DNA of 64,000 bases, taken from the NCBI RefSeq assembly GCF_014077095.1, contig NZ_JACGVG010000028.1, forward strand, positions 1 through 64,000. Direction: 5' to 3'. Within the stretch, counting starts at the first letter, position 1. Each line of letters begins with the position of its first letter. Made by a program: the position numbers and the translations under genes. This document shows, one piece after another, positions 1-44,005 of this stretch. This DNA is from Colwellia sp. MB02u-6. GTDB lineage: Bacteria; Pseudomonadota; Gammaproteobacteria; Enterobacterales; Alteromonadaceae. The notes below the pieces were generated by a model. That model was not told the origin of the DNA. It worked only from the letters and a program-made list of their open reading frames with translations, and did no database searches.

Positions 1-704
1 GTTTTATCTAAAGACGATAAACAAAATTCACACTTAAACGGACAACCACGCGAGGCTTCAACATATAGCAGACGATGGGTTAAATCTTCATCGGTATAAT
101 ACTGATAAGGTGATGCTAGCTCATTTAATTCAACGGGTTTTGAGTGAACTATTTTTTTATCGGGTGGCGAGTTATTTATAATGTCTTTACACAGTTGATA
201 AAAACTTAAATCAGCCGGACCTGTTAATACATAATCAGCATTGGCAACAATGGCTTGCTGCTCAGTTTCATAACTTACTTCAGGCCCACCTAAAATAATC
301 TTAATGTCAGGTGCGATAACTTTTAATAAGCTAACCACATCGGTGGTTTCAACAATGTTCCATATATAGACCCCAAACCCAACAATATCAGGCTTTGACA
401 CTAATATTTGTTCAACAATATCAATAGCGCGAGTTTGTATAATAAACTCTTTTATTTCACAGTAATCCTGTAATTCTTTTAAATTAGCGTAAAGATAACG
501 TAAACCAAAACTGGTGTGAAAGTATTTAGCATTGAGGGTAGCAAGCACAATTTTAGGCACAGTTTTATCGATTTCATCACTGTTTTTCTCAGCAACCTTT
601 GTACACTCTTTTATTGCATCAGGTTTTGTGGCATCTGAGGTATGATCTTCAGTTAAATGAAGCTGGGTAACCGTTAGTTCGGGATGATTTAATTGCTCTG
701 CCAT
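1..704 (-). CDS. B12-binding domain radical SAM protein (DUF4080-like), 5' part only
   Basis: The minus strand reads open from an ATG at 702-704 to the window edge, giving 234 codons. After a variable N-terminal stretch of about 48 residues comes a cobalamin-binding-like Rossmann region (motifs VLATLNAKY, VGFGVYIWN and ILGGPEVSYE), and near the edge the radical SAM cluster motif RGCPFKCEFC with cysteines at about residues 221, 225 and 228 (CxxxCxxC), which would bind a 4Fe-4S cluster and S-adenosylmethionine. The sequence after the cluster motif resembles the DUF4080 family of B12/radical SAM proteins. Substrate unknown. The start is uncertain because relatives usually begin nearer the VLATLNAKY motif and no strong Shine-Dalgarno precedes this ATG. 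The C-terminal half lies outside the window. Confidence 0.85.
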   Translation of the reverse strand, partial: MAEQLNHPELTVTQLHLTEDHTSDATKPDAIKECTKVAEKNSDEIDKTVPKIVLATLNAKYFHTSFGLRYLYANLKELQDYCEIKEFIIQTRAIDIVEQILVSKPDIVGFGVYIWNIVETTDVVSLLKVIAPDIKIILGGPEVSYETEQQAIVANADYVLTGPADLSFYQLCKDIINNSPPDKKIVHSKPVELNELASPYQYYTDEDLTHRLLYVEASRGCPFKCEFCLSSLDK

Positions 705-798
705 ACTGCTTTTTAAATACCTTTGATTAAATACCTGATGATGGTGTGATTGCTGATGTTATTCAGCAATCTTATTTTGGCTATTCCAGCTTACTATT

Positions 799-1776
799 TT
801 ACTGTAAACAACACTTCTTATATTTCTTCTGGCTGCCACACGGGCAAGGATCATTGCGATTAGCTTTTGCTAATGAACTTACGGGCACACTGTTTTCTAA
901 AATTGTATTTTCGTCGTACAAGATATTAGACAACAAACCACCCTCGCCCATTAACGAATCAAATACATCAAGGTTGTCGTTTGAAAGGCTATCGATTGAA
1001 GGATTGTCGAATACCTCATCATCTGAGCCATCACCTTCAGCCCAGGAATTTAAGGTATCAACAAGATTAAACTCTGTTTGAATGATGCCAGACTCAATCA
1101 ACTTACGCGCATTAAGGCTTTTCCATGCTTTTACTTCATCTTGTTTAAAGCGGTATTCATCAAATACGTCTTTATCACATAAGTCAAAAAACTGACCTTT
1201 AAGATCATCAAGTTGATATTCGATACAATAATCAGCTAATGCGCTAATTAAAAAACTGCTGATTGAACTGGGTAAAGCCAAAAATGCGGCTAACCATAGC
1301 GTGATATGTTCACTTAATTCAGCCTGATCAATAGTGCCCACTTCGTATTGAGCAAATACCGCTTCCATAGCAGAAGCTTTACCATACATCGCTTGATGAC
1401 TAGCAACAATATAGTCAGACAAAGCTTGTGTATTACCATTGGCGACATTATAAAATAAGGTTGATGTTAATTCAGTAATCGCATCACCAAATACCCCTTC
1501 AATAGGCGTTAAAAAAGCGTCACTGCACGAAAAAAGTTGCAAGCACTTTGATAGCGCGGGAGAATATTTTAACTCTGCTAATAATAAGGTGCCAAAAAAT
1601 AAAACGGCATTCTGCTCATCGGTTAGCGAACTATCATCTGCGACAAATTGATCTATTACCTGCTCTAATTCAGCATAAAATGCTGACCAATTCGTTTTAG
1701 CTACGTCGAGCGCGGCAACAGGTAGTTCGTTGTCATGTGCATTACCTATTTCCAATAAAGCTTGTTCTAAATTCAT
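799..1776 (-). CDS. DUF1186 / SEC-C motif protein
   Basis: This 325-residue acidic, mostly helical protein ends in a SEC-C zinc-binding motif, NDPCPCGSQKKYKKCC, in the last 20 residues. SEC-C tails are known from SecA, where they bind zinc and contact SecB and ribosomes, and occur on many uncharacterised proteins. The preceding 280 residues look like the DUF1186 family. There is no signal peptide, so it is cytosolic. It stands alone, about 90 bp downstream of the start of the radical SAM gene, on the same strand. Function is unknown; a chaperone-like or ribosome-associated role is only a guess from the tail. Confidence 0.8.
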   Translation of the reverse strand: MNLEQALLEIGNAHDNELPVAALDVAKTNWSAFYAELEQVIDQFVADDSSLTDEQNAVLFFGTLLLAELKYSPALSKCLQLFSCSDAFLTPIEGVFGDAITELTSTLFYNVANGNTQALSDYIVASHQAMYGKASAMEAVFAQYEVGTIDQAELSEHITLWLAAFLALPSSISSFLISALADYCIEYQLDDLKGQFFDLCDKDVFDEYRFKQDEVKAWKSLNARKLIESGIIQTEFNLVDTLNSWAEGDGSDDEVFDNPSIDSLSNDNLDVFDSLMGEGGLLSNILYDENTILENSVPVSSLAKANRNDPCPCGSQKKYKKCCLQ

Positions 1777-2278
1777 GTAAATTCCGCGTTAAATAATCAA
1801 TGATGAGTGGCAAATGCCGAATGTTATGACCATGCAAAGTGCGTAGATTTTAGTAGGGTTAAAAATGTTAACTACAAGGCGCATGATTTACTAATAGCCG
1901 GCTATTAGGATTGAATGCAACAGGGTAACTGGCTTTTTAAAGCGAATAAAACAAGCAATTTGTATGATGATGGGGGTATCTTAAACACTTATTATTACCG
2001 TTACCATGCAAAGCATCAGATTCAACCGAATTTTCAATTGATTGATCACTATAACGTTCAAATTGATCTAGTTTCGCTGCAATAAATTTAACATCCCAAT
2101 TTAACTAGAACACACTAGTTGTAAAATTAAGAACAAGGTTTAAGCCAACCTGGCTTTATTTGGAATAAAAAATTTCCTTACAGTAGGTTAGGTGAGTTTT
2201 CTTATATAGCTTGTTGATTGGATTGAAAATAGCGTAAACGCAGTCCGTAATCTGTAATTTAATCTTCTGTTTAAGTTT
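1777..2278. other. Intergenic gap with one unassigned open stretch
   Basis: About 500 bp without a supported gene. On the minus strand 1,937-2,104 is open for 55 codons after a stop but has no usable start; the implied peptide (including KFIAAKLDQFERYSD and a run of three histidines) is not recognised and may be the end of a decayed gene. No clear terminator or repeat was seen. Confidence 0.4.
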
Positions 2279-2746
2279 TTAGCCATTAAATTGCTCAAAT
2301 TTTAATGATAATTCTGTTGCCATTTTATGTTGTCCTTTAAGCCTTAATACTTCGATTATGCATTCGATGGTACATAGGCCACCTTTAGGTTGATTGGCCC
2401 TAAGTTTATATAACGAATCATTTACCGTTTTTAAAGTACATTTTGGCGCATTTTTTAAATACGAGCTCTGGTTGAAGATTTTTTTTGCTTCCTGCCATGT
2501 GCCATCAATAATAATAATATTTTCATACTCTTCAATTGTTGGTCTTGATACAGCAGACGATGATTCTGCCTTCGAATATAATAATACCGCCTCATTATTT
2601 TCTATGAGTCGAGTAAGGTCTTTATTAGGGGTTACTCTTTGCCAGAGTATACGTTCAACAATTTCATTAGCACTTTCTAGTGCAAGAGCGCCGGTATTAG
2701 TTGCCCTATGTAATTCGCGCTCATGTGTAAGTAAAAATATTTTCAT
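2279..2746 (-). CDS. DTW domain protein, compact tRNA-uridine aminocarboxypropyltransferase-like
   Basis: The 155-residue product carries the DTW family signature as DGTWQEAKKIF at residues 81-91, preceded by THERELHRATNTG near the N terminus (the 'TNTG' block of TapT) and followed by the LRANQPKGGLCTIE block at about 113-128. DTW enzymes (TapT/YfiP in E. coli) transfer the 3-amino-3-carboxypropyl group of SAM to U47 of tRNA (acp3U). This version lacks the N-terminal cysteine cluster of TapT and is about 75 residues shorter. It could be a shortened TapT or a DTW paralogue with another RNA target. Confidence in family is high, in substrate low. Confidence 0.82.
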   Translation of the reverse strand: MKIFLLTHERELHRATNTGALALESANEIVERILWQRVTPNKDLTRLIENNEAVLLYSKAESSSAVSRPTIEEYENIIIIDGTWQEAKKIFNQSSYLKNAPKCTLKTVNDSLYKLRANQPKGGLCTIECIIEVLRLKGQHKMATELSLKFEQFNG

Positions 2747-2862
2747 TATTATGTATTGTTCCGCTTTAAATTATTGTTGTAAAGCTTGTTCGCCAGACCT
2801 GCAATGGTTAGCACAAAATCTACATTAAGCGCTTCAAGTGAAATGTAGAGCCATACCAGGAT

Positions 2863-3072: not shown

Positions 3073-3159
3073 AGGTCTACCCTTCAGCGTGTAGTATCTA
3101 TAAAAGTATTGAACGCTAGAAATTCTATAAAATCATATAACCCTTATAGATAGAAGAAA

Positions 3160-3225
3160 AAAACTGCTAATTTTTCAATTAGCAGTCTTTTATATTTTGT
3201 TAGTGAGATAGGGATTTAAACTGCA
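3160..3225 (-). repeat. Degenerate copy of tRNA-Ser 3' end plus its terminator (candidate island attachment scar)
   Basis: This stretch aligns with 13,507-13,575, the terminator and T-arm/acceptor end of the intact tRNA-Ser(UGA) gene, at roughly three quarters identity over about 70 bases. The terminator stem is kept by paired changes: ACTGC/GCAGT here against ACCGC/GCGGT there. The tRNA portion (GAGATAGGGATTTAAAC) has decayed. A second 3' end of the same tRNA about 10 kb away in the same orientation is the geometry left by integration at a tRNA. Confidence 0.6.
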
Positions 3226-3345
3226 TCCTTTCAACTTTGAAAAAACTTTAAATTTTTAATACGTAACAATAAAAATCCAAACCAAAGTTGGCAATTAGTG
3301 AATGCATTGACTTTGTATAACCCCGGCTATTTTGTCAACCTAAAC

Positions 3346-3390
3346 AGAAAGAAAGCACCAGTTTATCATGTGCTTTCTTTCTTAGTTTTT
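3346..3390 (+). terminator. Strong hairpin followed by T-run
   Basis: A 13-bp inverted repeat (AGAAAGAAAGCAC / GTGCTTTCTTTCT) with an 11-base loop is followed by a T-rich tail on the plus strand. It looks like a rho-independent terminator, yet no plus-strand gene ends here. It lies just left of the first attC site and may insulate the cassette array. Confidence 0.5.
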
Positions 3391-3471
3391 TTGAATCCAA
3401 AATTAAGATGGTTAACTTTACACGCGGATTAATATCACTTTTACTACATTCGCGACATTAGGTTTTGTATC

Positions 3472-3528
3472 GGTAACGCCTTAAGAAGGGCGCAGTTTAC
3501 TGCGTCCCACTTACTTAATTTGTTAGGT
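3472..3528 (-). repeat. Integron attC site 1 (short, about 57 bp)
   Basis: Read on the minus strand the element begins CCTAACAAATTAAG and ends CTTAAGGCGTTAC, with an inner stem GGGACGCAG / CTGCGCCC. That is the attC layout: R'' (..TAAC), L'', a foldable centre, L', and R' (GTTRRRY). It starts directly after the stop codon of the 194-residue gene at 3,530, as expected for a cassette recombination site. It is shorter than the other three sites in the window. Confidence 0.75.
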
Positions 3529-3529
3529 T

Positions 3530-4114
3530 TTAATTGTCTGGATGAACAGCGACTTTAATTGCATCTTTGCTAATTTTTTTGACTGATGAGAGCTTACTCA
3601 TTAGTAAAGAACCTTCTTCTAATATTTCGTCAAATAATTCTACATCTTCTTTGTTAAATTCTGGTTGAGCCTCAATGATGCATTTAATATATTGAAGTTG
3701 ATTTAGCAAGTTGTTGATTATGTGCTGCGAACTGTGAATTGTAGCCAAATAAATCTCTTCTTTTTCTTTGGCTGCATTATTTTTAATGTCAACAATTTCT
3801 TTGCTGTGAGCTTTCCATTTGAATACTAAAATAGCTGTTACCCATACCGCGAAGATAGCCAAAGCACGGTTAAAGAAGACCTTCCACTCTTCACCACCAG
3901 CAGGAGAGAAGTAGTACCCTAGAGCAACCATTATTGAACAAAGAACAGCGAAGTAGATGATTGGACTTTGCTTTGTAGCCCAAAGAGTAATCAGTATAAC
4001 TGTGATGTATGGGACTCCCCCTGCGACACCTAAAGGTAAGTTGATATCAATTATAAATATTAAAATAACGATACTCAAACAAGTGGTATAAATTTTCAGA
4101 TCTTGAGAGCTCAA
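3530..4114 (-). CDS. Integron cassette gene: membrane sensor-like protein without kinase domain
   Basis: The 194-residue protein has four to five membrane segments in the first 120 residues, with motifs LPLGVAGGVPYITVILITLW and SPAGGEEWKVFFNRALAIFAVW that resemble the N-terminal sensor region of PAS/histidine kinases. Then comes a cytoplasmic helical region with IHSSQHIINNLLNQLQ, like a DHp phosphoacceptor helix of HisKA_2/HWE type. No ATPase domain follows; the protein ends at VHPDN. The start appears to be TTG. The stop is immediately followed by attC site 1. It may act as a membrane dimer titrating a partner kinase, or be a truncated relic. Family assignment is inference. Confidence 0.65.
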   Translation of the reverse strand: MSSQDLKIYTTCLSIVILIFIIDINLPLGVAGGVPYITVILITLWATKQSPIIYFAVLCSIMVALGYYFSPAGGEEWKVFFNRALAIFAVWVTAILVFKWKAHSKEIVDIKNNAAKEKEEIYLATIHSSQHIINNLLNQLQYIKCIIEAQPEFNKEDVELFDEILEEGSLLMSKLSSVKKISKDAIKVAVHPDN

Positions 4115-4152
4115 ATTTCCACGTCCTATTTTGAGATAATAGTTGAAGCTAA

Positions 4153-4250
4153 ACCTAACGCCCTAATAATGGGCAAAAAATTGTTGGCTAAAATGTTGAG
4201 GGACGAAAGCAGCAAACTGTTTTCTGTCCTTATTAATTAGCTTGTTATAT
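4153..4250 (-). repeat. Integron attC site 2 (about 98 bp)
   Basis: On the minus strand the element begins ATAACAAGC and ends GCCCATTATTAGGGCGTTAGG, closely resembling the ends of long, VCR-like chromosomal attC sites. An inner stem pairs GGACAGAAAACAG with sequence near CTGCTTTCGTCC. The stop codon of the VOC gene (TAA) lies inside the R'' box, which is typical of cassette genes. Confidence 0.85.
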
Positions 4251-4637
4251 GCCAACTTGCTCATATAGCTCTAATGGTAGACCATCAGGGTCACTAAAAA
4301 AGGTAAACTTTTTATTAGTATATTCATCTAGCCTAATCGGCTCAACATCCACGCTTTGAGACAAAAGGTAATTTCTAACCGATTCAACAGACTCTACATT
4401 AAATGCCAAATGCCTTAAACCTAGAGCTTCAGGGAAACTGGGTCTATCCGGTGAATTAGGGAAAGAAAATAATTCTATTTGACCACCATCTGGTAATTTT
4501 AGATCGAGTTTAAATGAATCTCGCTCTTCCCGATAATTCTCAGCTATAACCTCTAGTCCAAGAATTGAAACATAAAATCTCTTAGATTTTTTATAATCTG
4601 AGCAAATTATAGCAGCATGATGAATCGATTTAAGCAC
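4245..4637 (-). CDS. Integron cassette gene: VOC-family (glyoxalase I-like) metalloprotein
   Basis: The 130-residue protein starts at GTG with a good AGGAGA site and shows the two beta-alpha-beta-beta-beta modules of the vicinal oxygen chelate fold: HHAAIICSDYKKSKRFYVSILG at the start and LRHLAFNVESVESVRNYL in the middle, ending FFSDPDGLPLELYE. Likely metal ligands are His7 or His8, the Glu in QIELFSF, His of LRHLAF and the final Glu of LELYE. It resembles the YaeR/GloA2 group (SMU508-like). The substrate is unknown; glyoxalase, dioxygenase and fosfomycin/bleomycin-resistance members share this fold. The stop codon is embedded in attC site 2, so this is a mobile cassette. Confidence 0.85.
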   Translation of the reverse strand: MLKSIHHAAIICSDYKKSKRFYVSILGLEVIAENYREERDSFKLDLKLPDGGQIELFSFPNSPDRPSFPEALGLRHLAFNVESVESVRNYLLSQSVDVEPIRLDEYTNKKFTFFSDPDGLPLELYEQVGI

Positions 4638-4651
4638 CTAATCTCCTTGGT

Positions 4652-4751
4652 ATATAACGCCTCGTTAAGGGGCAAATAATTGTTGCCTAAAATAAGCGAC
4701 GCAGGAGTAAAAGCCAACTGTTATTTGTTCTGCTTTAACGACTTGTTAGCT
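4652..4751 (-). repeat. Integron attC site 3 (about 100 bp)
   Basis: Minus-strand ends are GCTAACAAGTCGTTAAAGC and GCCCCTTAACGAGGCGTTA; internal arms AACAGTTGGC and GGCAACAATT can pair. It is roughly three quarters identical to attC site 4, including the shared centre GCGACG-AGGAG. Such similarity between neighbouring sites is characteristic of sedentary chromosomal integrons. The stop of the next gene (TAA) lies within its R'' box. Confidence 0.88.
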
Positions 4752-5033
4752 GTATTTACTTTTTAGATGAATTAACAAATTTGTCCGAACAATTTCAAGA
4801 ACAAATGAAACAGTCACCACTAAAGTTGAGTGAATTATATAACCTAACCCGACCAATGGATCAGATGAACAACTAGAGTTAAGGATTTCACAATAAAAGA
4901 AGTCCACAAAGAATGTAGATGCAATAGCTAAAAAAAGTAATAGTACGAATCGAAATAACGACACCAATTTTAGTAAATGTATAATTAAAACTATTACGAT
5001 TGATGGTAATAAAACGTTTAATATTCCTTCCAT
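4746..5033 (-). CDS. Integron cassette gene: small membrane protein of unknown function
   Basis: I start this gene at the ATG at 5,033, preceded by GTGAGG, rather than at an upstream TTG inside the attC boundary, giving 95 residues. There are three hydrophobic stretches (ILNVLLPSIVIVLIIHLL, FRFVLLLFLAIASTFFV, STLVVTVSFVLEIV) separated by a short loop with CEILNSSCSS, so it is probably an inner-membrane protein with two extracytoplasmic cysteines. No family recognised. The stop overlaps attC site 3. Small membrane proteins are common in integron cassettes. Confidence 0.65.
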   Translation of the reverse strand: MEGILNVLLPSIVIVLIIHLLKLVSLFRFVLLLFLAIASTFFVDFFYCEILNSSCSSDPLVGLGYIIHSTLVVTVSFVLEIVRTNLLIHLKSKYS

Positions 5034-5055
5034 GGTATGCCTCACATGCTGATGC

Positions 5056-5154
5056 AACTAACGCCTCACTAAGAGGCAAATGATAGTTGGTTAAAATAAG
5101 CGACGAAGGAGCAAAAACCAACTATTTTTTGCCCTTTTGAGTGCTTTGTTAGTT
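5056..5154 (-). repeat. Integron attC site 4 (about 99 bp)
   Basis: On minus it begins AACTAACAAAGC and ends TGCCTCTTAGTGAGGCGTTAG. The internal arms AATAGTTGGTTTTTGC and AACCAACTATCATTTGCC are inverted and foldable. It is closely related to attC site 3. It separates the small membrane-protein cassette from the broken cassette gene at 5,154-5,920. Confidence 0.88.
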
Positions 5155-5920
5155 TATTTATTACCAAGAACTAGAACTTGATTTGCTTCTGGACCTTTCT
5201 TTCCTTGAGATATAGTTAATTGAACCTGATCTCCTTCATTCAAATCCTTTTCATCGCCTATAATCGCCTCCTCGACTTTAGCCACAACAATTATTACAGA
5301 ATAATTTTCCAGCATTGATACATAAACTTGCACTGATACCGACTTTCCAGTACCTGTCTGAGCAGGAAAGACAAGATTTCTAACAGTTTTAGGAAGCTCT
5401 ATATTGGGACGAATAGAAAAGTTAAACAGTCGGCACATATGCTCCAAAAGCTCAGGCATATCCTTAGATATTAGAACGCTTTTAGATGCTAACTGAACTA
5501 CCACCTTCTCTACAAATTCCTCAGGTTCTATTGGCGTATCTGGCATTGTTGCAGGATTAAGTATAGTTTGATTGTTCGGATGATACAGGTCGTGAGGATT
5601 ATCCATGGAAAATTGTATACTTTTCCCCTCATCATCAAAATAATCCTCTGATGGGAATTTTTGCCAACTCGGTTAAAAACCTTTATACCTAGCTCGGTCG
5701 CCCAACCCATGAAATAGAGACTTAGCGTATTCCAGAGAGAAAACATCTAGGTCATAAAAGCTTTCACTGTTTGGACGTAGTATTCACCATACTGATCGTG
5801 ATCAAAGCTGTTGGTGTGACTCTGTCTTATCAGGTCATATTCATCCTGAAAGTCATCAAAGTCGTAATGCATTATTAATCTATTAATCGACAGACTAGCA
5901 TCATACGAAAATGGTTTCAT
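5154..5920 (-). pseudogene. Broken cassette gene with cold-shock-like C-terminal tail
   Basis: Three open segments on minus appear to be one damaged gene. The first (ATG at 5,920, 57 codons, MKPFSYDASLSINRL...) runs to a stop at 5,747. A frame change near 5,760 opens a segment containing YDLDVFSLEYAKSLFHGLG, which ends at an in-frame TAA near 5,680. The same frame resumes with PSWQKFPSEDYFDDEGKS and continues through the ATG at 5,606 to 5,154. The final 35 residues (DLNEGDQVQLTISQGKKGPEANQV) resemble the last strands of a cold-shock domain; mid-protein AQTGTGKS looks like a P-loop but lacks its context. Intact length would be about 255 residues. The last 150 codons could still be expressed alone. 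Its end abuts attC site 4. Confidence 0.5.
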
Positions 5921-6406
5921 TGTGCAATAATTAAGTTAATTACCAGTAAAAAATGAAAGAAAAAAACTTCAAACTTATCCTGTCAATTTAACTAGGTAAT
6001 TAGACAATTACTCAATCAACTCCCTTCATTCTTCAAGCCGCATAGTATGATTATAAGAGGCTTTGACCTTATTGCCCTCATATGACCTAGCTGCTGAGGC
6101 TCTAACAGAACAGCATCAAGCCTACAGTGCTCTCTCCTGAGTTTTGAAAAACTAAAGCGGTACCCATGAAACAGGTAATCACCATAAGATAAATCAACCG
6201 CTAGTTTTAAAAAGTTAATAACAGGTATTGTTAAGTCTCTATTACAAATATGAAGCTGACAAGGGAGTAGTTTTATATCTTGGTTCGGCCTTTAGGGTTA
6301 ATACAGGATAATTTAAAGCCATAAAACTTTTAAGTAATGCTAAAGCTTAACTAAAAAATTTAAACCGTGAAAAAGATCTAAAACCGCACCTATTCAATCA
6401 TTTGTT
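5921..6406. other. Gap with start-less open stretch (possible gene remnant)
   Basis: No intact gene or integrase is visible upstream of the cassette array, where attI and intI would be expected. On minus, 6,016-6,291 stays open for 91 codons before its stop, but without any usable start codon (peptide includes VDLSYGDYLFHGYRFSFSK). It looks like protein-coding sequence that lost its 5' end. Family not recognised. Confidence 0.35.
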
Positions 6407-6490
6407 ATAACTTAAAACATTTAAGAACTGCATAAAATGAAATTTTACGAAGTTGAACCAACGTTAGATAATTACTGGCGAGCAATCATA
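6407..6490 (+). repeat. 84-bp direct repeat, copy 1
   Basis: Matches 9,266-9,349 with only about six mismatches. It holds the leader and the first 18 codons of the gene at 9,296. Here the reading frame (ATG at 6,437) leaves the homology after TRP-ARG-ALA-ILE-ILE and stops at 6,517 after 26 codons, so this copy is a truncated 5' fragment. The two copies flank the lipoprotein and DUF4105 genes. Confidence 0.85.
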
Positions 6491-6517
6491 TTTTTTTGGG
6501 CGTACGCCACCTATTAA
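6437..6517 (+). pseudogene. Truncated 5' fragment of the gene at 9,296
   Basis: The 26-codon frame begins MKFYEVEPTLDNYWRAII, the same as the start of the 9,296 gene (MEFYEVEPTLDNYWRAII), and then diverges and stops. It is the coding part of the 84-bp repeat. Probably left by insertion or unequal duplication of the segment between the repeats. Confidence 0.7.
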
Positions 6518-6665
6518 CAGTACTTTAACATATTGAAAGAAATAGTATTTTCTATATGGAAAGGAAAATACTCCCAAGGTTGCTTTTTAAATTTTACTTC
6601 GGTAAAATTCTGCCGACTCAGGGATGAACTGTCTCAGGGATGTATTTAATAAAGGACTCTATAAG

Positions 6666-7028
6666 ATGAAATTAAAGGTTATATTTACTTTAGCTATTGC
6701 GACTATATTCGCATCTGGCTGTTCCACAATTCTCACAGATGATACTCATAAAATGAATGTTTCTACTAGTAATGGTAAAAAAATTGATGTCGAAGTTGAT
6801 GGGAACATTCAGGCTGTACCTGGTATAGTAATTGTAGAAAAAGAAAATAAAGATAAAATTTTAATCACTAAAGATGCGGCTTGTACAAGTAATACTGCCT
6901 TAAACAAAGAAGTGGAGACTACGTTCTTCGTAAATCTTCTTAGTGGTGGTGTTTTGGGTTCTAGTACTGATTATGGGACAGCTAAAATGTGGAAATATCA
7001 AGATTCAGTGACTATTAGCTGCAACTAA
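6666..7028 (+). CDS. Small lipoprotein, partner of the DUF4105 gene
   Basis: I place the start at the ATG at 6,666, with AAAGGA nine bases upstream, rather than at 6,624, because it leaves a proper lipoprotein signal: MKLKVIFTLAIATIFASGCS with lipobox ASGC and a lipidated Cys19. Serine at +2 predicts outer-membrane targeting. The mature 100 residues hold one beta-rich domain with a likely disulfide (Cys in DAACTSN and the penultimate Cys in TISCN) and a hydrophobic glycine-rich stretch (FVNLLSGGVLGSSTDYG). The next gene begins three bases after the stop, so the two form an operon. No named family recognised. Confidence 0.75.
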   Translation: MKLKVIFTLAIATIFASGCSTILTDDTHKMNVSTSNGKKIDVEVDGNIQAVPGIVIVEKENKDKILITKDAACTSNTALNKEVETTFFVNLLSGGVLGSSTDYGTAKMWKYQDSVTISCN

Positions 7029-7031
7029 ACT

Positions 7032-8879
7032 ATGTATCACTTATTATTTAAAGGAAGCCTATTCGCTTCCTTTTTTATATGCCATTTTAGCGTATATGCT
7101 TTATCATCAAACGTTACATCACCTACTAAAGATACCAGCGAATTGGTTGAACAGTCTAAAAAACTTGTACTTTTTGAACATCCGATTTGGCAAGCGATTC
7201 TCCACGTAAAAAACGGGCAACCAATCAATTCTAACTATGAACGCTACCTAAGTGCTAACAATTTTTCAGTAGAAAAAGAAATGGCGTTAACCCTTGAATT
7301 GATTCTTAATGACAAACAAAGTGAATGCAACTACCCTGCTAGAATAAATTTTTTACAAGAATTTTTGGATTTTAATGAGACATTAGATTTAAGCCATTGT
7401 GATAGTTATCAAGAGTATTTACACAAAGTACCCATTGCTGATATTTATTTAATATACGCTTCAGAAAACGTAAAGAATGCCAGTTCGATGCTGGGTCACA
7501 TTATGCTAAGGATGGATGGTATCAATGATAAAGGTTTAAACGTAAGCCACGGCATCACTTTTTTCACTGAACTAAAAGGTTTTAATGTTCCTAAAATCCT
7601 TTACGATAGTTTAGTCACGGGAAAAAAAGGTATTTTTCAAATAGCCCCTTACTCTGATTTTGTAAATAACTATTTAAACATTGAACTAAGAAACATTTGG
7701 GAGTATAAACTTTCATTATCAGATATTCAAAAGCAGCTTATTCGGGATATTACTTGGGAACTCGGCAGTACTGATTTATCATACTTCTTTCATACTTATA
7801 ATTGTGCCACAGTTACTCAGTTATTAATTGCTAGCTCCGTACCAGAGACAATTCCGACATTACAATCATGGCTAACACCTCTAGACGTTGTTCATTTCGT
7901 CGAAGAAAATAATTTAGTAGAGAAGACCAATCTTATCCCATCAGAAGAATGGGAACTACGTGCATTAATTGATAACTTACCACAAGAAGTAATAACCAAA
8001 GCAATACAGTCTGTCCATAGTGCAAATATTGATTTGAAAACAATTTCTTCGGAAAGAGACAAGTTGCTGACCATAGCATTTTACAAAGCTTACAATAAGT
8101 TTTCCGTGAGAAAAAATTTAATTAATAACGACGTTTATGAGAGAAACAATATAAAAATTGAGCAATTAACGACAAAATCGCCCAATTTTCAGCTTGAAGT
8201 AAGTGATTATAAAATGCCTACTGCTGCGTCACCTGATGGACAAGTTGCTGTTGGTTGGCGAAGTGAAAATAAAAAAGACTGGCTGTCAATTAATCTATTT
8301 CCTGTGGCAAGTCATCAAGGCGATAACAAGAAGCACGTTTTTGGGGAAACAACACTTACACTTGCATCACTTGATATATTGTATAATCCGGAATCTAACA
8401 ATATTAAACTTGATAATTTTATTGTCTACTCTATGCATTCTATGATCCCTTTTGATAATACATTAAAAGGGTATTCAACGGGTTTTCGATTTGGATTAGA
8501 GAGACATAATGATGTCAAGCTTACTGGAAAGTTAAACGCCTTTATAGAAGGAAAACTTGGGTTTACTTATGAATTTAACCAAGACATCGGAGCATATTTT
8601 GAAACTGCACTAGGTATTGGCAGTGACAGCAACTCAACCTACTTGTATACAACACCACAATTAGGAGCATACGTATATTTGATTGGCGGCATAAAATTAC
8701 ATGTTCAGAATAGTATTAGTTTTAATAAACAAAAGTCCGATCTAGTCTTAAATACATCTTCACTCTTTCTTGACTGGCAAATTAAAAGAGACTTATACCT
8801 GTCCGCTGATTACATCAAATATTGGAATTCTATTAAATCAACTAAGTCGTATGGGATGCGTTTAAGATATAGGTTTTAG
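7032..8879 (+). CDS. Lnb/DUF4105 domain outer-membrane protein
   Basis: A 615-residue protein with an N-terminal signal (cleavage near VYALSS). The middle, about residues 115-330, matches the DUF4105 (Lnb N-terminal periplasmic) family with SSMLGHIMLRMDG near residue 155 and the papain/NlpC-like cysteine in HTYNCATVTQLL near residue 260. The C-terminal 200 residues alternate polar and aromatic positions and end in YGMRLRYRF, a beta-barrel with terminal Phe for BAM insertion. It thus resembles DUF4105 proteins that present a periplasmic catalytic domain on a barrel. The catalytic pair would be His158 region and Cys near 260. Substrate unknown; peptidoglycan, lipoprotein acyl chains or amide bonds have been considered for such folds. 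Co-transcribed with the lipoprotein upstream. Confidence 0.8.
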   Translation: MYHLLFKGSLFASFFICHFSVYALSSNVTSPTKDTSELVEQSKKLVLFEHPIWQAILHVKNGQPINSNYERYLSANNFSVEKEMALTLELILNDKQSECNYPARINFLQEFLDFNETLDLSHCDSYQEYLHKVPIADIYLIYASENVKNASSMLGHIMLRMDGINDKGLNVSHGITFFTELKGFNVPKILYDSLVTGKKGIFQIAPYSDFVNNYLNIELRNIWEYKLSLSDIQKQLIRDITWELGSTDLSYFFHTYNCATVTQLLIASSVPETIPTLQSWLTPLDVVHFVEENNLVEKTNLIPSEEWELRALIDNLPQEVITKAIQSVHSANIDLKTISSERDKLLTIAFYKAYNKFSVRKNLINNDVYERNNIKIEQLTTKSPNFQLEVSDYKMPTAASPDGQVAVGWRSENKKDWLSINLFPVASHQGDNKKHVFGETTLTLASLDILYNPESNNIKLDNFIVYSMHSMIPFDNTLKGYSTGFRFGLERHNDVKLTGKLNAFIEGKLGFTYEFNQDIGAYFETALGIGSDSNSTYLYTTPQLGAYVYLIGGIKLHVQNSISFNKQKSDLVLNTSSLFLDWQIKRDLYLSADYIKYWNSIKSTKSYGMRLRYRF

Positions 8880-9013
8880 GTATCTTTGTGATACGTACAA
8901 GTTGATCTTTAGTTTAACCATATACCTTCAAGAACGCCTTAAAAGCTTAATGATAAAACTGCCCACTAACTAATAGTGAGCAGTTGACTTAAAGAGCAAC
9001 CGATAGCTGATGT

Positions 9014-9211
9014 CTATAAATCGTACTTAGTTGTTGTTTTATAATGTTCTATTATTAATTTTGTAGGATCTAATCCAAATAATCACATGACTTGAGGGAC
9101 ACCGTCTTTAGCATCTGCTAATGACTGAGTAACCATTAAGGCTATCATCTTACCTAGTCGATTAATTGCACCCTTCGAACTCACCTGATAATACTCTGGC
9201 CTCGCTGTTGG
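9014..9211 (-). pseudogene. Gene remnant with an in-frame TGA
   Basis: Between a stop at 9,212-9,214 and one at 9,014-9,016 the minus frame reads as plausible protein (PEYYQVSSKGAINRLGKM, then DAKDGVPQVM, TGA, LFGLDPTKLIIEHYKTT). The TGA splits an otherwise coherent peptide. No start codon with ribosome site is visible. The family is not recognised. The rest of 8,880-9,265 shows no gene; a short hairpin (CTGCCCACTAACTAATAGTGAGCAG) at about 8,958-8,983 may end the DUF4105 operon. Confidence 0.4.
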
Positions 9212-9265
9212 TTAACTAAGCTCAATATTTATTTTTTACTATACGTTGACGATATATTCGTTATT

Positions 9266-9349
9266 ATAACTCAAAGTATTTAAGAGCTGCATAAAATGGA
9301 ATTTTACGAAGTTGAACCAACGTTAGATAATTACTGGCGAGCTATCATA
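9266..9349 (+). repeat. 84-bp direct repeat, copy 2
   Basis: Second copy of the repeat at 6,407-6,490, in the same orientation, covering the leader and first 18 codons of the broken gene at 9,296. Divergence is about 7 percent, so the duplication is not very recent. Confidence 0.85.
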
Positions 9350-9612
9350 CTGTTTGGTCGAAATGTAGCTTCTTACAAATTTGCTTTAGCTAAGTCTCTA
9401 TATGAGCTTCATGCTGTACCTAATGACTTAGTTAAAATGGAGCAATTAGCAGCCCCTTTTAGCCATCAGCTATGTGAACACCTACAACACAATAACGTCA
9501 AAATCTAGTGCGTTTTTAAGTGCTTGTAGTAGTTATAATAATGGCAGTTTAAGCCATGAGAAGTTAATAGGCCAAACGATTAAGCTTGGTTTCAATAATG
9601 TAATAGATGCTT
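9296..9612 (+). pseudogene. Frameshifted 5' part of a gene, possibly an HNH nuclease family protein
   Basis: The frame starting MEFYEVEPTLDNYWRAIILF runs 70 codons to a stop at 9,508. Around 9,490 the coding similarity moves to another frame (SKSSAFLSACSSYNNGSLSHEKLIGQTIKLGFNNVIDAFH), consistent with loss of one or two bases. The N-terminal block is one I associate, with low certainty, with HNH-endonuclease proteins of defence or mobile contexts; the HNH part itself is absent, so this cannot be confirmed. At 9,612 the sequence switches to a different family. Confidence 0.55.
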
Positions 9613-9913
9613 TTCATATTGATAAGTATGATGCTATATGGTGTTGTGCTTCCCTCTACACGTACCTGAGAGCGACTTACTTACTACTTTTAGCACCTTA
9701 TCGTTTAAGTATGGTGACTCACAGAGAGAAGAAGGTGGTCGTTTATTTACTGATGTTAATGAAGTAAAGCTAGCTACTTTGGTAAGTACTTTACCTCATA
9801 TTAAAGTAAAGCGTACTTGGATTACAGAAGATAATCGCCCTGAAAGAAATCAGAATTGGCTTAATACTGTTTTAAAGAAAAATAATTCACGTAAATTAAA
9901 AATTAGATGCTAA
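9613..9913 (+). pseudogene. C-terminal remnant of a class I SAM-dependent methyltransferase
   Basis: The first part (DKYDAIWCCASL) continues the frame of the preceding remnant; then the frame changes to LHVPESDLLTTFSTLSFKYGD, REEGGRLFTDVNEVKLATLV and WITEDNRPERNQNWLNTVLKK. Together these are the second half of small class I methyltransferases (the 'D-x-I-W-x-x-A-S-L-L-H-V-P' and 'W-x-T-x-D-x-R-P' blocks). The SAM-binding GxGxG half is missing, and about ten residues around the 'LKPGG' turn appear deleted. It is fused directly to the end of the previous remnant, so this is a deletion scar rather than a working gene. Confidence 0.7.
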
Positions 9914-9945
9914 GTTGTTTAAGAACCTAGCATCTAATGGTAAAA

Positions 9946-12102
9946 CTACATCTCGATAAAAACACCATCACCAGCACTTAAGCTAGTAATAATCCCGATA
10001 TTCTTGTCTTCCAGTTGTTGAGCCGTATTAGTGTTTGAGCTGTAGCCAGTCCATGCTTGAGTCTCGTTGTTAAAGAACCACACAATTTTAGCATCATTGA
10101 AAATACCTAAATCAGTAACATCTTCAGGTATAGAGATCATCTTCCAACCAGAAGGTAACTGAGCAAGACCTTCTTTAGATAAACCTACAACTATATTAAG
10201 ACCATAAGTTACTGGATTATTGATTACATTATTTTCACCATCAGTTATACCAGTTGTTGCTGCTGCTGCTGCTACTGCTGCTACTGCAGTTGCTTGAGCT
10301 GCTTCAGTAACTAAACTGAACTCAGCAAGGTTATTTTGTACATACTGCTTACCTGTGGTGATACCAGACGTATTTGAGGCCGCTACTGCTATTGCTTGAG
10401 CGGCTTCAGTAACTAAACTGAACTCAGTAAGGTTATTTTGAACATAATGCTTACCTGATGAGAAAGATTTAGATTTTTCAATATCAATTTCAGAAATAAG
10501 TAGTTCATAATATTCAGGAGAAACCGCTTTGATAAGCCTTTGTTCGTAAGTCATTTCATTCCAAGGTAGCTCACTAATAGCTACACCTAGACTTGAAGTA
10601 GAAAACTCGCCTTCACTATCAGTTACTTTTACGTTAACCGTATAAGTTCCTGCTGTATTGTAGGTATAGGTATTTAAAGAGGTATAGTTTTCATCATTCA
10701 AATAGTCATATGAAACATCAATTACACCCCTACCATCGGCCAATGTGTAATCTGTAGTAAATGTAAGCTCACTTTGCTCTTTAGCTGTCCCTGTATATGT
10801 TACAAAATTTATAGTTGGCTTTGTGGAACTAAATTCATAAGGCCCTATGTCTATATTGCCGCCTGAAATCCTATCATTTCCATTTAAATCCGTTATTAGT
10901 AAGTCGATATCATCTATAACTGCTGTACCTACATCTATTAAATCTGATACACCTGTAAGGTTGTAATTATCATTAATTTCACTTACAAAACCTAGCGTTA
11001 CATTATTAAAAATAATTGATTCAGTAACCACAGTTATAGCAACATCATTTAAATCTAAATAGGAGTTTTCAATGTTTATAATTGGCTCTCCACTGACACG
11101 TGAGCCATTGATACTTGAGGATAATATTATTGTGTTATATATATTATTATCTATATATGACAAGTAAAGGTTACTATTGTTAAACAATGAATTTTCTATT
11201 GTATTTTTTTTACTCAGTAAAACTGCTGTGCCAGAATTAACAAATATTGAATTTTTTATTGATGATTTTTGATTATAATAAGCATTTCCAGACCTTATGC
11301 TCTTTTTAATGTTGTTATTAATAAATATACTATTGTTAACAGTAATCCCCCAATTCGTACTTAATATAGAAGAGGAGCCATAAAGTCCCCAAGACGGATT
11401 AAATAATATAGGAGAACTATCACTTGTATCTCCATTATTATTAAAATTCGAGTTTGTTACTTTTATATTTCTAAGGCTATCATCGGGACCACTATTATTT
11501 GCAGATACTACATTCTGTGTATTGTTGGAATCAAAGGTTGAATCATCAATATAGGTATTTGCTGAGTAAACAGTACTCCCTCCTAAGCGTTCACCTGGAA
11601 CTGGAATTCCATTAAAAGAGTTCTTAATAAATTGAGTACTTTGTATTGTTAAATTTTTACCATATATTGCAGAGCCTATTTCAGATGAATTAACTGCAAA
11701 GGCAGAGCCTTTTATATTCAAGTGTAATGTAGAGTAAATGCCACCGCCCTCAATATTTTTTCCATTTAAAAAAGAAATGTTTGTTAAGTTGATTTTTGCC
11801 ACAGTTTGAGTCGATTTAAAGTTGATAATACCTGTTTGATAATTTCCACTTAAGATTGCATTATCGGCTGAGGAACCTTGAATAATCAATGAATTGGACT
11901 CATTACTTAAATAAATAAATGTACCTTCTCCATCATCAGTGGTTTTATAAGTTCCATCAGCAAGGTTAATAGTGTCATCTTCACCGTTTGTTGCTGCTGT
12001 TGATAATGCAATTCTCAGCTCTGGAGTAGTTGATACATTAAATGTTGCTGCTTGAGTTAATGAAGACGCAGCAACTAGTAATAATAATAAATATTTTTTC
12101 AT
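9946..12102 (-). CDS. Secreted beta-helix surface protein with PKD-like domain
   Basis: I start at the ATG at 12,102 (AAGGAAAG upstream), giving 718 residues with signal peptide MKKYLLLLLVAASSLTQA. After cleavage comes a right-handed parallel beta-helix of about 380 residues (DGTYKTTDDGEGTFIYLS, IIQGSSADNAILSG, repeated N-rich turns, ending NGNDRISGGNIDIGPYEFSS), typical of polymorphic outer-membrane/pectate-lyase-like folds. A PKD or Ig-like domain follows (AGTYTVNVKVTDSEG). Then two 35-residue repeats with V-Q-N-N-L-x-E-F-S-L-V-T-E-A-A-Q-A, encoded at about 10,240-10,460, and a C-terminal 80-residue domain (LPSGWKMISIPEDVTD, VWFFNNETQAWTGY). Probably cell-surface adhesin or sugar-binding. 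Follows the lipoprotein gene by 10 bp in one operon. Confidence 0.72.
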   Translation of the reverse strand: MKKYLLLLLVAASSLTQAATFNVSTTPELRIALSTAATNGEDDTINLADGTYKTTDDGEGTFIYLSNESNSLIIQGSSADNAILSGNYQTGIINFKSTQTVAKINLTNISFLNGKNIEGGGIYSTLHLNIKGSAFAVNSSEIGSAIYGKNLTIQSTQFIKNSFNGIPVPGERLGGSTVYSANTYIDDSTFDSNNTQNVVSANNSGPDDSLRNIKVTNSNFNNNGDTSDSSPILFNPSWGLYGSSSILSTNWGITVNNSIFINNNIKKSIRSGNAYYNQKSSIKNSIFVNSGTAVLLSKKNTIENSLFNNSNLYLSYIDNNIYNTIILSSSINGSRVSGEPIINIENSYLDLNDVAITVVTESIIFNNVTLGFVSEINDNYNLTGVSDLIDVGTAVIDDIDLLITDLNGNDRISGGNIDIGPYEFSSTKPTINFVTYTGTAKEQSELTFTTDYTLADGRGVIDVSYDYLNDENYTSLNTYTYNTAGTYTVNVKVTDSEGEFSTSSLGVAISELPWNEMTYEQRLIKAVSPEYYELLISEIDIEKSKSFSSGKHYVQNNLTEFSLVTEAAQAIAVAASNTSGITTGKQYVQNNLAEFSLVTEAAQATAVAAVAAAAATTGITDGENNVINNPVTYGLNIVVGLSKEGLAQLPSGWKMISIPEDVTDLGIFNDAKIVWFFNNETQAWTGYSSNTNTAQQLEDKNIGIITSLSAGDGVFIEM

Positions 12103-12112
12103 GGTTCTTTCC

Positions 12113-12860
12113 TTAGAATACTGGCATTGGTGGTGGCGTTGAAATTTCATCTGATGGTATTTGTGTTAAAGGAGGAATAGATACTTGAAGAACCTGTAAG
12201 GTAAACTCAGTACTATCTTCTAGCTCACCATCTGACACATTTACTGCAATCACCTCATCGCCAACATATTGATTGATAGGAGTGATATGCAAAATATCAT
12301 CTGAAATATTTACTTCAAAATTAGCATTATTTGACAGTGAAGTACTATAGCTAAGCGTATCTCCATTTGAATCACTAGCAGTTAGCGCTATTTCTATGGC
12401 TGTGTCTTGGTAAGTAGCTTTGTTTTCAATCTGTGACAATATAGGCGCTTCATTAACAGAGTTTACTATAAAGCTAACGGTATCTTTACCTGTTGCTCCA
12501 TCATTGTCTGTTACGGTTAACTGAAAAGTTAATGTGACTTGAGTATTAGTTGTTATATCAAAGCTTGCTGAACTACTAGAGGCATTATCAATCGTTACAG
12601 ACTCACCTGATGTTTGAGTCCAGCTATAACTTGAAATAGTGCCATCTGAATCAGTACCACTACCTAATAAAGTAACACTACTTCCTTCATCAACAGTTTT
12701 GTCTTCTCCTGCGTTAGCTATAGGTGTTTTATTAGTAGGAGAAGGCGCTGGTTTTTCTCCACCACCATCTGAGCCACCACCACAGGCCGCCAGCGAAGTA
12801 ATTAATAGAGATTGCGTTAAGGTTTTTCTCAAAAAATGATGTGAATTATATTGAAGCAAA
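12113..12860 (-). CDS. PKD/cadherin-like domain lipoprotein
   Basis: The open frame extends to an ATG at 12,886, but the best start is a TTG near 12,859 with AGAAGGA nine bases upstream, leaving a lipoprotein signal LRKTLTQSLLITSLAAC and a glycine/serine/proline linker (GGGSDGGGEKPAPSPTNK). The body is a PKD domain (IANAGEDKTVDEGSSVTLLG ... LTFQLTVTDNDGATGKDTV) followed by a cadherin-like or Ig-like domain (LSQIENKATYQDTAIEIALTASDSNGD ... VNVSDGELEDSTEF), ending in a proline-rich tail. It is predicted to be an outer-membrane-anchored extracellular beta-sandwich protein. Upstream gene of the beta-helix operon; the two may form one surface assembly. Confidence 0.7.
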
Positions 12861-12872
12861 ATTAGAGTCCTT

Positions 12873-12956
12873 CTAGGTTGATTCATCAGCGTATGTAATA
12901 CCAGAAAAGATTAATGAGGATGTAAATGTTGCGGAGGTTAATAATGTGTTTTTCAT
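12873..12956 (-). CDS. 27-residue signal-peptide-only ORF, leader or truncated gene
   Basis: The ATG at 12,956 has a strong ribosome site (AAAGGAAT, three bases away) and encodes a textbook Sec signal peptide, MKNTLLTSATFTSSLIFSG followed by ITYADEST and a TAG. The stop lies just before the AGAAGGA site of the next lipoprotein gene. It is either a leader peptide coupling translation to the lipoprotein, or the start of a secreted protein cut off by a deletion that joined it to the lipoprotein gene. Confidence 0.45.
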   Translation of the reverse strand: MKNTLLTSATFTSSLIFSGITYADEST

Positions 12957-13098
12957 GTTATTCCTTTATATTCTAGAAAGTTCAAATACAAATCATTTGC
13001 ATTAATTCCATTAAAACAATTACTTCATTGCTTAATTTAACATTTGCACAATATTTATAATGTAAGATATACCCGCTTATTATGTAAGACATCTGCCG

Positions 13099-13252
13099 TT
13101 AGAGGATATATGTTACACTTGCGCCGTAAGAATAGTTAGAGTTCATACCGTACATAGTTGCCGAGGCCAAACCATTACATCGCATTTGGAATACCATTCT
13201 GAGCACCATTAAGATAGAGAGTGACTTGTTTCTTGAAAAAGCTTGCTAACGC
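13099..13252 (-). pseudogene. C-terminal remnant of an outer-membrane beta-barrel protein
   Basis: One minus frame reads SALASFFKKQVTLYLNGAQ then NGIPNAM and a stop at about 13,177; an overlapping frame continues with NGLASATMYGMNSNYSYG and ends ASVTYIL at 13,099. Joined by one frameshift, this looks like the last two or three strands of a porin-type barrel (the -K-Q-x-x-L-Y- strand and a final hydrophobic strand). Nothing upstream of 13,252 continues it. The remaining part of 12,957-13,426 shows no gene; a GATC-rich hairpin (CTGATCtacGATCAG) lies at about 13,287-13,303. Confidence 0.4.
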
Positions 13253-13386
13253 GCTTCACCTGCAACCTTAAATAAAATTATGGGGTTCTGATCTACGATC
13301 AGGTTCGATTAATTTTATATGAGGTCGTTTTTTATAGTAACGTGAGTATTTGACGGTTTTCTTGACGGTTCAGAAAGTATAAGATA

Positions 13387-13418
13387 TAAAAAAGCCCTTT
13401 GATAACAGGGGCTTATCT
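13387..13418 (-). terminator. Rho-independent terminator after tRNA fragment
   Basis: On minus, AAGCCCC and GGGCTT pair around a ten-base loop, followed by TTTTTTATATC. It follows the partial tRNA-Ser copy as the next terminator follows the intact tRNA. Confidence 0.6.
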
Positions 13419-13426
13419 ATAAAATT

Positions 13427-13482
13427 TGGCGGAGAGATTGGGATTTGAACCCTAGAAGGATTGGCGCTATAAATCCTAGGTT
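13427..13482 (-). repeat. Partial second copy of tRNA-Ser 3' end
   Basis: Bases 13,427-13,461 repeat the acceptor/T-arm end of the intact tRNA-Ser (TGGCGGAGAGAT, GGGATTTGAACCCTAGAAGG) with one mismatch, and weaker similarity continues into the variable arm (CTATAAAtCCT). The anticodon and D arms are missing. It includes the genomic CCA. Such a copy 120 bp from the tRNA suggests a small or successive insertion event, or a decayed tandem tRNA gene. Confidence 0.75.
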
Positions 13483-13505
13483 ATTATAGTTCACTAAATT
13501 CTAGA

Positions 13506-13545
13506 TGAAAAAAAACCGCTAATCTTTCGATTGGCGGTTTTTTAT
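13506..13545 (-). terminator. Terminator of tRNA-Ser
   Basis: On minus, ACCGCCAATC and GATTAGCGGT pair around GAAA and are followed by TTTTTTTTC. It lies immediately downstream of the tRNA. The diverged copy at 3,160-3,200 keeps the stem. Confidence 0.8.
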
Positions 13546-13549
13546 AATT

Positions 13550-13640
13550 TGGCGGAGAGATAGGGATTTGAACCCTAGAAGGGCTATAAACCCTTGCTGG
13601 TTTTCAAGACCAGTGCTTTCGACCACTCAGCCATCTCTCC
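13550..13640 (-). tRNA. tRNA-Ser(UGA)
   Basis: The minus strand gives GGAGAGATGGCTGAGTGG at the 5' end, anticodon stem-loop CTGGTCTTGAAAACCAG with anticodon UGA, a long variable arm (GCAAGGGTTTATAGCCCTTC) typical of class II tRNAs, T arm AGGGTTCAAATCCCT and acceptor TCTCTCC with discriminator G and encoded CCA. It decodes UCA (and other UCN) serine codons. The mature body is 88 bases plus CCA. Its 3' end is the probable insertion point of the accessory block to the left. Confidence 0.97.
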
Positions 13641-43744: not shown

Positions 43745-43767
43745 TAACGGTAATGCGATTAGCTTAA

Positions 43768-43862
43768 CCATTCCTACGCCGGTACTATCCGGTTCAGGTT
43801 CTAAGGGTTCGCTTCGCATCTCAGCCATTAAAATCGTAATAATTTTCAGGCACCCCTTGGTT
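43768..43862 (-). ncRNA. TPP riboswitch (THI element)
   Basis: On minus the aptamer shows the conserved blocks in order: AAGGGGTGCC, the pyrimidine-sensor helix with GGCTGAGATGC, AACCCTTAGAACCTGA and the final CCGGATAGTACCGGCGTAGGAA. It binds thiamine pyrophosphate and controls the downstream operon, here the TonB receptor, YkoF-like gene, pnuT and kinase. Confidence 0.95.
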
Positions 43863-44005
43863 CGATATGCATACTAACAATATTTGTTTAAAAGTACAGC
43901 GTAAAAACTAAATAAATAAAAATTTTATATTGCCTTATCTTGACTTGAGCTATGGGTAATAAATCATGAAATTTATCTCATAACATACTTATTTAAGCAG
44001 CTAAT

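Follow-up and report, generated by a model that had tools for sequence, protein, structure and literature searches.

The described systems closest to the locus analyzed here are clusters of attC sites lacking an integrase (CALINs), which, in the part of the IntegronFinder 2.0 report considered (PMC9024848), share with our locus at least two attC sites, one gene orientation and no integrase nearby. In Shewanella, a marine gammaproteobacterial genus, a similar scatter of attC clusters and single sites (CALINs and SALINs), with and without intI, is described for most strains in the sections consulted (PMC9229058). CALINs comparable to ours also occupy recurrent chromosomal loci outside the main integron site in roughly half of the Xanthomonas genomes, and in the excerpts at hand the authors read them as a sign of ancestral integron activity and state that a functional IntI can mobilize CALINs in trans (PMC12444791). 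CALINs may represent dead integrons, off-target products or still active outposts of a distant integrase.

The stretch of DNA analyzed here, referred to as the window, corresponds to the initial 64 kb of contig C28, which measures 237,448 bases in a draft assembly of 4.01 Mb and 42 contigs. Judged from named matches to one window gene, the top ones being from Colwellia sp. MB3u-45, Colwellia sp. MB3u-41 and Cognaticolwellia mytili, the host is related to Colwellia/Cognaticolwellia. As the window begins where the contig does, the distal side of the array is visible for 3.5 kb only.

The four attC sites and their cassettes

As an Rfam search of the window at gathering thresholds returned a TPP riboswitch and a tRNA and nothing more, a purpose-built attC covariance model (R1) was used. 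R1 was trained on 13 attC sites from two other loci of the same genome, nine beside the intact intI on contig C29 and four adjoining the broken copy at the C28 terminus, with the shortened site C28_c excluded and no window site included, and the window was searched with filters off. All four sites proposed by the initial annotation were found by this model trained elsewhere, with coordinates agreeing to one base, and sites 2 to 4 each had E <1e-15 in the 64-kb window (Table 1). Only one further match in the 64 kb had E <0.05, namely site 4 on its opposite strand (23.9 bits), and the top unrelated match reached 19.4 bits (E 0.068). The presence of four genuine attC sites in the window is confirmed. 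The array is oriented on the minus strand, and the bottom strand for IntI is the plus strand of the window. The TPP riboswitch occupies window positions 43754-43867 on the minus strand, directly upstream of frame 41523-43616, a TonB-type receptor by look alone.

Table 1. Coordinates of the array, its flanks and the attI-like heads found elsewhere in the same genome.
Feature	Sequence	Coordinates	Strand	Description
Degenerate tRNA-Ser 3' end + bases beyond	window	3157..3221	+	82% over 65 bases to 13509-13573
Distal-end motif	window	3456..3477	-	common to other arrays of genus
attC 1	window	3471..3527	-	short type, 57 bases; array's distal end; R1 29.1 bits, E 4e-4
Cassette gene	window	3530..4114	-	194 aa; listed start TTG
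attC 2	window	4153..4249	-	R1 80.9 bits
Cassette gene	window	4245..4637	-	130 aa, VOC/glyoxalase-like, YaeR/SMU1112c family
attC 3	window	4652..4750	-	R1 91.9 bits, E 1.7e-18
Cassette gene	window	4746..5057	-	103 aa; no family match
attC 4	window	5056..5153	-	R1 90.5 bits
First cassette	window	5154..5606	-	150-aa open frame; weak C-terminal cold-shock-domain match
First cassette, upstream coding-looking stretch	window	5607..5920	-	frame change + stop (three-frame translation)
Segment at G009's intI position	window	5921..13257		left edge approximate
tRNA-Ser (TGA)	window	13550..13640	-	ARAGORN; Rfam tRNA 13553-13640; conserved side of locus
attI-like head	L009	3762-3913		intI-less array, directly before first cassette
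attI-like head	L060	3748-3981		intI-less array, directly before first cassette
attI-like head	L063	4866-5011		intI-less array, directly before first cassette
attI-like head	L064	3951-4100		intI-less array, directly before first cassette
attI-like head	L066	5378-5527		intI-less array, directly before first cassette
attI-like head	L067	9041-9192		intI-less array, directly before first cassette
attI-like head	L069	4031-4176		intI-less array, directly before first cassette
attI-like head	L070	5996-6146		intI-less array, directly before first cassette

The annotated placement of the sites at minus-strand gene stops held as well, the stops at 3530, 4245, 4746 and 5154 each lying no more than 3 bases away from the R'' end of the respective attC or inside it by a few bases. 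Sites 3 and 4 are the close kin they had been taken for (84% identity over 73 bases); among the attC regions of the intact integron, site 3 further matches the second (88% over 124 bases) and site 4 the fifth (94% over 94 bases). In the 13 training sites, 85.8% of cells were paired compared with 76.3% after shuffling and 35-54% when slid, for a structure that the analyst drew on that same alignment, and covariation was present. Non-standard pairs numbered 3, 2 and 1 of 30 in sites 2, 3 and 4, respectively, and the bottom strand was found to have paired R and L arms and extrahelical bases, by covariation in the 13 sites and the fit of the window sites to them. When the sites were folded singly, the z values of sites 1 to 4 were −1.7, −3.0, −0.6 and −4.8 on the bottom strand, about equal to those on the top strand (−1.9, −2.3, −1.4 and −5.0). 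The bottom-strand folding invoked initially was borne out by the family structure and its covariation, and in part by the folds of lone sites, which are a weaker support and a poor discriminator. The window sites appear recombination-competent.

Each attC is accompanied by one minus-strand frame, four in all, in the same orientation. The 194-aa product had no Pfam, NCBIfam or PADLOC match at the thresholds used, and the 130-aa product matched NF050075 (200.9 bits, cut-off 140) and PF00903 (71.9 bits). A 77% amino acid relative of the 103-aa gene lies in the corresponding interval of relative G005, between the SEC-C and tRNA-Ser genes, without a detectable attC adjoining. The 150-aa frame scored 22.2 bits with PF00313, below the cut-off of 27, and this weak cold-shock domain was all that PADLOC returned for the cassette proteins. 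Judged from the interrupted stretch upstream of this frame, for which no relative was found for comparison, the gene of the first cassette may be broken. Between 3100 and 6700, 13 promoter-like sites were counted compared with 13.4 in shuffles, which neither favours nor opposes cassette promoters.

Past the last attC, a distal-end motif, GTTAYCGATACAAAACCTAAT, had 19 matches in 7 of 17 genomes, and the reversed-pattern control had none in the 17. The motif abuts an R1-detected attC in 8 of the 19; the other 11 are without such a neighbour, a few of them decayed-attC-like by eye. The intact integron shares the window motif at its last attC. An empty attI joined directly to the motif was matched four times, with 2-3 mismatches, in 4 of the 17 genomes and none in the window's own genome (G000), compared with one match of the reversed control, a result that does not establish an empty platform.

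Across this genome, an R1 scan found at least 41 attC sites at E <=0.001, three of them in the window, whose short site 1 was found by the window search alone. Among the matches listed, 14 attC clusters were distinguished by eye: one of nine sites beside the intact intI, one of five beside the broken intI and 12 without intI, including the window array. All 17 genomes of the genus carry attC sites, from at least 10 to at least 104 per genome.

Integrases and the SEC-C to tRNA-Ser interval

The initial annotation had seen no integrase, and within the window this stands: no IntI family match was obtained at E <=0.001 with the TIGR02249 profile, and tblastn with 19 IntI proteins gave a best E of only 0.018. 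These proteins and three attI profiles found no attI/intI remnant in the window, and no attI core with up to 2 mismatches was present at 5.6-6.6 kb (24 matches vs 16.2 expected in the 64 kb), so that the intI, attI and array of a complete integron are not found together here. It does not stand for the genome, where the search for intI that the annotation had advised located an intact gene on contig C29 and a broken one at the end of C28. The C29 integrase (334 aa; TIGR02249 414.6 bits, cut-off 265), adjoined by nine attC sites, can be aligned from residue 19 to 334 with 2a3v, an integron integrase of solved structure (E 7e-83); its stretches GLRKAE, HTFRHSF and LGHIDLKTTQIYTH presumably hold the catalytic residues. 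It represents a third clade, with 40-45% identity to full-length clade A and B proteins. The broken intI (C28:236381-237282), on the same contig as the window and at its opposite end, was matched in four pieces, three of them with stops, and is the nearest intI trace on this contig, at 236 kb. In the fetched stretch L011 (8330-9300) the broken gene shows several stops and frame changes, and its relative in G012 (C25:19545-20492) is without an inner stop.

Genus-wide, an IntI match above the cut-off was found in 15 of 17 genomes, the top match having an inner stop in G001 and G002. In G016, a draft 99% complete, attC sites numbered at least 58 and IntI was not matched at E <=1e-10; contig ends within its arrays could hide an intI. 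In seven relatives (L175, L177, L179, L180, L182, L184 and L185), intI lies beside 4 to 5 tRNA-Asp genes. The tRNA-Asp cluster is a second recurrent integron site. The clade B integrases of G005, G007 and G014 have one flank in common, with a gene recognizable as gcvP.

The surroundings of the array were compared in 13 of 16 relatives. The closest is G012, to which window positions 1-2768 are 91% identical. SEC-C keeps to one side throughout the relatives taken. It is followed by a DTW gene in just three cases (the window, G012 and G011); in the others DTW is on the other side of SEC-C or out of view. Because the DTW position varies, SEC-C and tRNA-Ser serve better as landmarks. The two can be seen together in the window, G012, G008, G005, G014 and G001, at a spacing of 2.3 to 14.2 kb. 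The fetched stretches of 5 of the 13 relatives contain attC sites (11 in G012, 8 in G009, 3 in G016 and 1 each in G004 and G005), the single site of G005 being on the far side of SEC-C. Between the two landmarks, attC sites were found in G012 only, of five relatives, and none in G008, G005, G014 or G001; these integron-free intervals carry other genes, and no junction matching both window flanks was found.

In G012 the interval holds an array, then an attI-like stretch with about 15 codons of intI, and then tRNA-Ser fragments. This attI-intI piece matches the broken-intI region of our genome (89% over 287 bases) and the clade A attI-intI profile (E 2e-99), whose training includes the G012 copy. 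None of the window cassette genes was found in the G012 stretch. In G009, the end of contig C21 carries an intI (309 aa, its start cut by the contig edge), followed by about 95 bases, a homologue of window 13258-13577, tRNA-Ser and a Tag gene, and contig C1 carries SEC-C followed by attC sites up to the contig end, from which we infer that one integron continues across the two contigs. These parts in G009 and G012 indicate that the interval has held integron platforms, and as the two belong to different IntI clades (B in G009, A in G012), it is a recurrent integron site and not one inherited integron.

Among the genes of the window segment at the G009 intI position are a small lipoprotein-like one, one with an Lnb_N domain and, at 9296, one that is possibly broken; no integron part was found in the segment. 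A 95-base direct repeat (91% identity; 6402-6496 and 9261-9355) brackets the lipoprotein-like and Lnb_N genes and takes in the start of the broken-looking gene 9296-9913, and a 79-base direct repeat (91%; 10277-10355 and 10379-10457) lies within a 734-aa frame (9946-12150), a surface protein in appearance.

attI-like sequences without an integrase gene

The genus-wide occurrence of attI-like sequence, mostly without intI, is a more novel result than the window array itself. A match to the 150 bases that precede the first cassette in the intact integron is present in 16 of 17 genus genomes (E <=0.001), and in a family sample attI-like sequence was found in at least 31 of 147 genomes, our own genus included, and at least 16 of 52 genera (E <=1e-5). 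In an alignment of 27 copies (24 of 30 loci plus L064, L069 and L070), the share of the commonest base averaged 0.85 across the 30 columns leading up to AATAAGCTG/TTA, against 0.38 across the next 30, the drop falling at the G/TTA of this consensus. The GTTA end is present in 23 of the 27 copies and the exact core in 13. Likeness beyond the core was seen in a single pair among 351, that of L203 and L214, which are orthologous. With variants, the core also occurs in the attI beside clade A and three clade B integrases with attI in view.

Of the 30 attI loci fetched, 29 were re-found by nhmmer and 19 have attC on the cassette side. An intI adjoins the attI copy at three of the 30, one of them a fragment, where intergenic intI was sought with the C29 protein only. 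L210 additionally has a 43% match to part of another tyrosine recombinase. In the window's genome, 8 of the 12 intI-less clusters have an attI-like head (seven of C29 type, one of clade A; Table 1), and none was detected for the window array, L061, L062 or L068. All eight except L067 were first found by blastn, L066 weakly (E 0.007); the attI profile was trained on copies including L064, L069, L070, L194, L210 and L222, whose matches are by construction. This recurrence fits either many integrons left without intI by loss or attI sites served in trans. A tentative extension, in which the integrons of the genus might form a distributed system of many intI-less attI stations spread over the chromosome, each with a small cassette array, with one or few IntI acting in trans, would make the window array a station minus its attI.

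Some of these loci differ from G012 in other ways. In L063 (3390-5238), inverted repeats, GTGGTCGGTTGGGCTAAGTGGATAGCCC (2 mismatches), enclose an attI-plus-cassette segment that G012 lacks. To judge from these terminal repeats, the segment may have come by transposition rather than by cassette gain, in the manner of a transposable unit carrying an intI-less integron. One copy of the GTGGTCGGTTGGGCTAAGTGGATAGCCC repeat lies beyond the L064 array and two in the G012 stretch L112. The inverted repeat is not general among the loci compared in this genome, being at both ends of L063 and one end of L064, the latter recurring in L142 and L168. Nor does L066 establish precise cassette gain or loss, its differing unit being bounded by terminal-repeat copies. 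In L067, one G000 cassette is missing in G012, and the crossover lies within near-identical attC copies, off the IntI cut point; this difference is no demonstration of cassette exchange by IntI, as ordinary recombination explains it equally well.

Origin of the array and relation to known systems

The window array, with four attC sites, one same-orientation gene for each and no integrase nearby, is a CALIN. The initial annotation had offered a CALIN or the tail of an array that had lost its integrase; the definition of the former applies, and a lost integrase is the better origin, given the integron parts in the same interval of G012 and G009. We consider it probable that this CALIN consists of the surviving cassettes of a local chromosomal integron, between the SEC-C/DTW genes and tRNA-Ser, whose attI and intI were lost. 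A chromosomal integron would once have stood there, the segment of 5.9-13.3 kb would have taken the place of its lost attI and intI, and the four cassettes would have outlived the platform. The R1 matches, the intact and broken intI of this genome, the parts in G012 and G009, the common distal motif and the likeness of the window attC sites to those of the intact integron would all suit such a loss. Against it would speak the absence of a remnant in the window, four of five relatives without attC between the landmarks, the differing clades of the two platforms, the split of the G009 integron, the lack of a window cassette gene in G012 and the third clade of the intact IntI, which may or may not use these attC sites.

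The interval empty of attC in four of the five relatives with both flanks visible makes local loss slightly less and trans-insertion slightly more likely, that is, the placing of the cassettes by IntI at a non-integron, attG-like target that never had a local integrase. The process is known from the literature, according to the parts considered of three reports (PMC12444791, PMC12901181 and PMC11023631), and this genome has both an intact IntI and 12 intI-less attC clusters among the matches listed. We nevertheless regard this origin as unlikely, since the distal end is the motif of the intact integron and of other arrays rather than random sequence, and G012 and G009 carry integron parts in the very same interval.

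Homologous recombination at attC or terminal repeats, or a tRNA-Ser-bounded island, might alternatively have moved the array or part of it. Copies of the tRNA-Ser 3' end bracket 3.2-13.5 kb, similar attC copies are present on C29 and in the window, and the L067 comparison places a crossover inside near-identical attC copies. The stray tRNA-Ser copy is explicable, however, by the fragments repeated beside tRNA-Ser in relatives, and in the fetched stretches no other compared locus of the genome contained any of the four cassette genes; we therefore hold such a move to be rather improbable. That the sites are chance palindromes or terminators is hardly credible, for even though site 3 folds alone no better than shuffles, the short site 1 scores low and terminator-like patterns numbered 4 vs 1.5 in shuffles at 3100-6700, three of the matches to a model trained elsewhere have E <1e-15, in one orientation and with all sites at gene stops.

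The cassettes of the array may still be within reach of IntI from C29, which could act in trans by excising them via the folded bottom strand and inserting them at its own attI, and IntI made elsewhere could also bring new cassettes into the array. As no platform promoter was seen, we propose that the cassettes would rely for expression on promoters within the array or ahead of it.

In anatomy the window array is an ordinary CALIN, and its interest comes from the locus series and from the surrounding intI-less attI sites. The series, with intI nearly complete in one relative, truncated in another and absent from the window, provides a comparative test bed; if the intI-less attI sites are functional, cassette capture would not be bound to the place of the intI gene. 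IntI reportedly also inserts cassettes at attG sites outside integrons, work credited to Loot et al. 2024. Our arrays resemble such insertions in having cassettes outside integrons and IntI in the genome; a common distal end and attI-like heads in 8 of 12 clusters are unlike insertion at scattered targets. In Colwellia relatives, intI occupies several sites, including tRNA-Asp, tRNA-Ser and, as we take it, gcvP. In contrast, intI of Xanthomonas, where kept, is at one site, ilvD, in the excerpts considered (PMC12444791). The Colwellia clusters have attI-like heads on integrase-less arrays, which are not mentioned in the consulted sections of the Shewanella report (PMC9229058). Relative to the CALINs in the part of the IntegronFinder 2.0 report considered (PMC9024848), nothing essential differs, and the window locus adds integron parts at the same place in two relatives.
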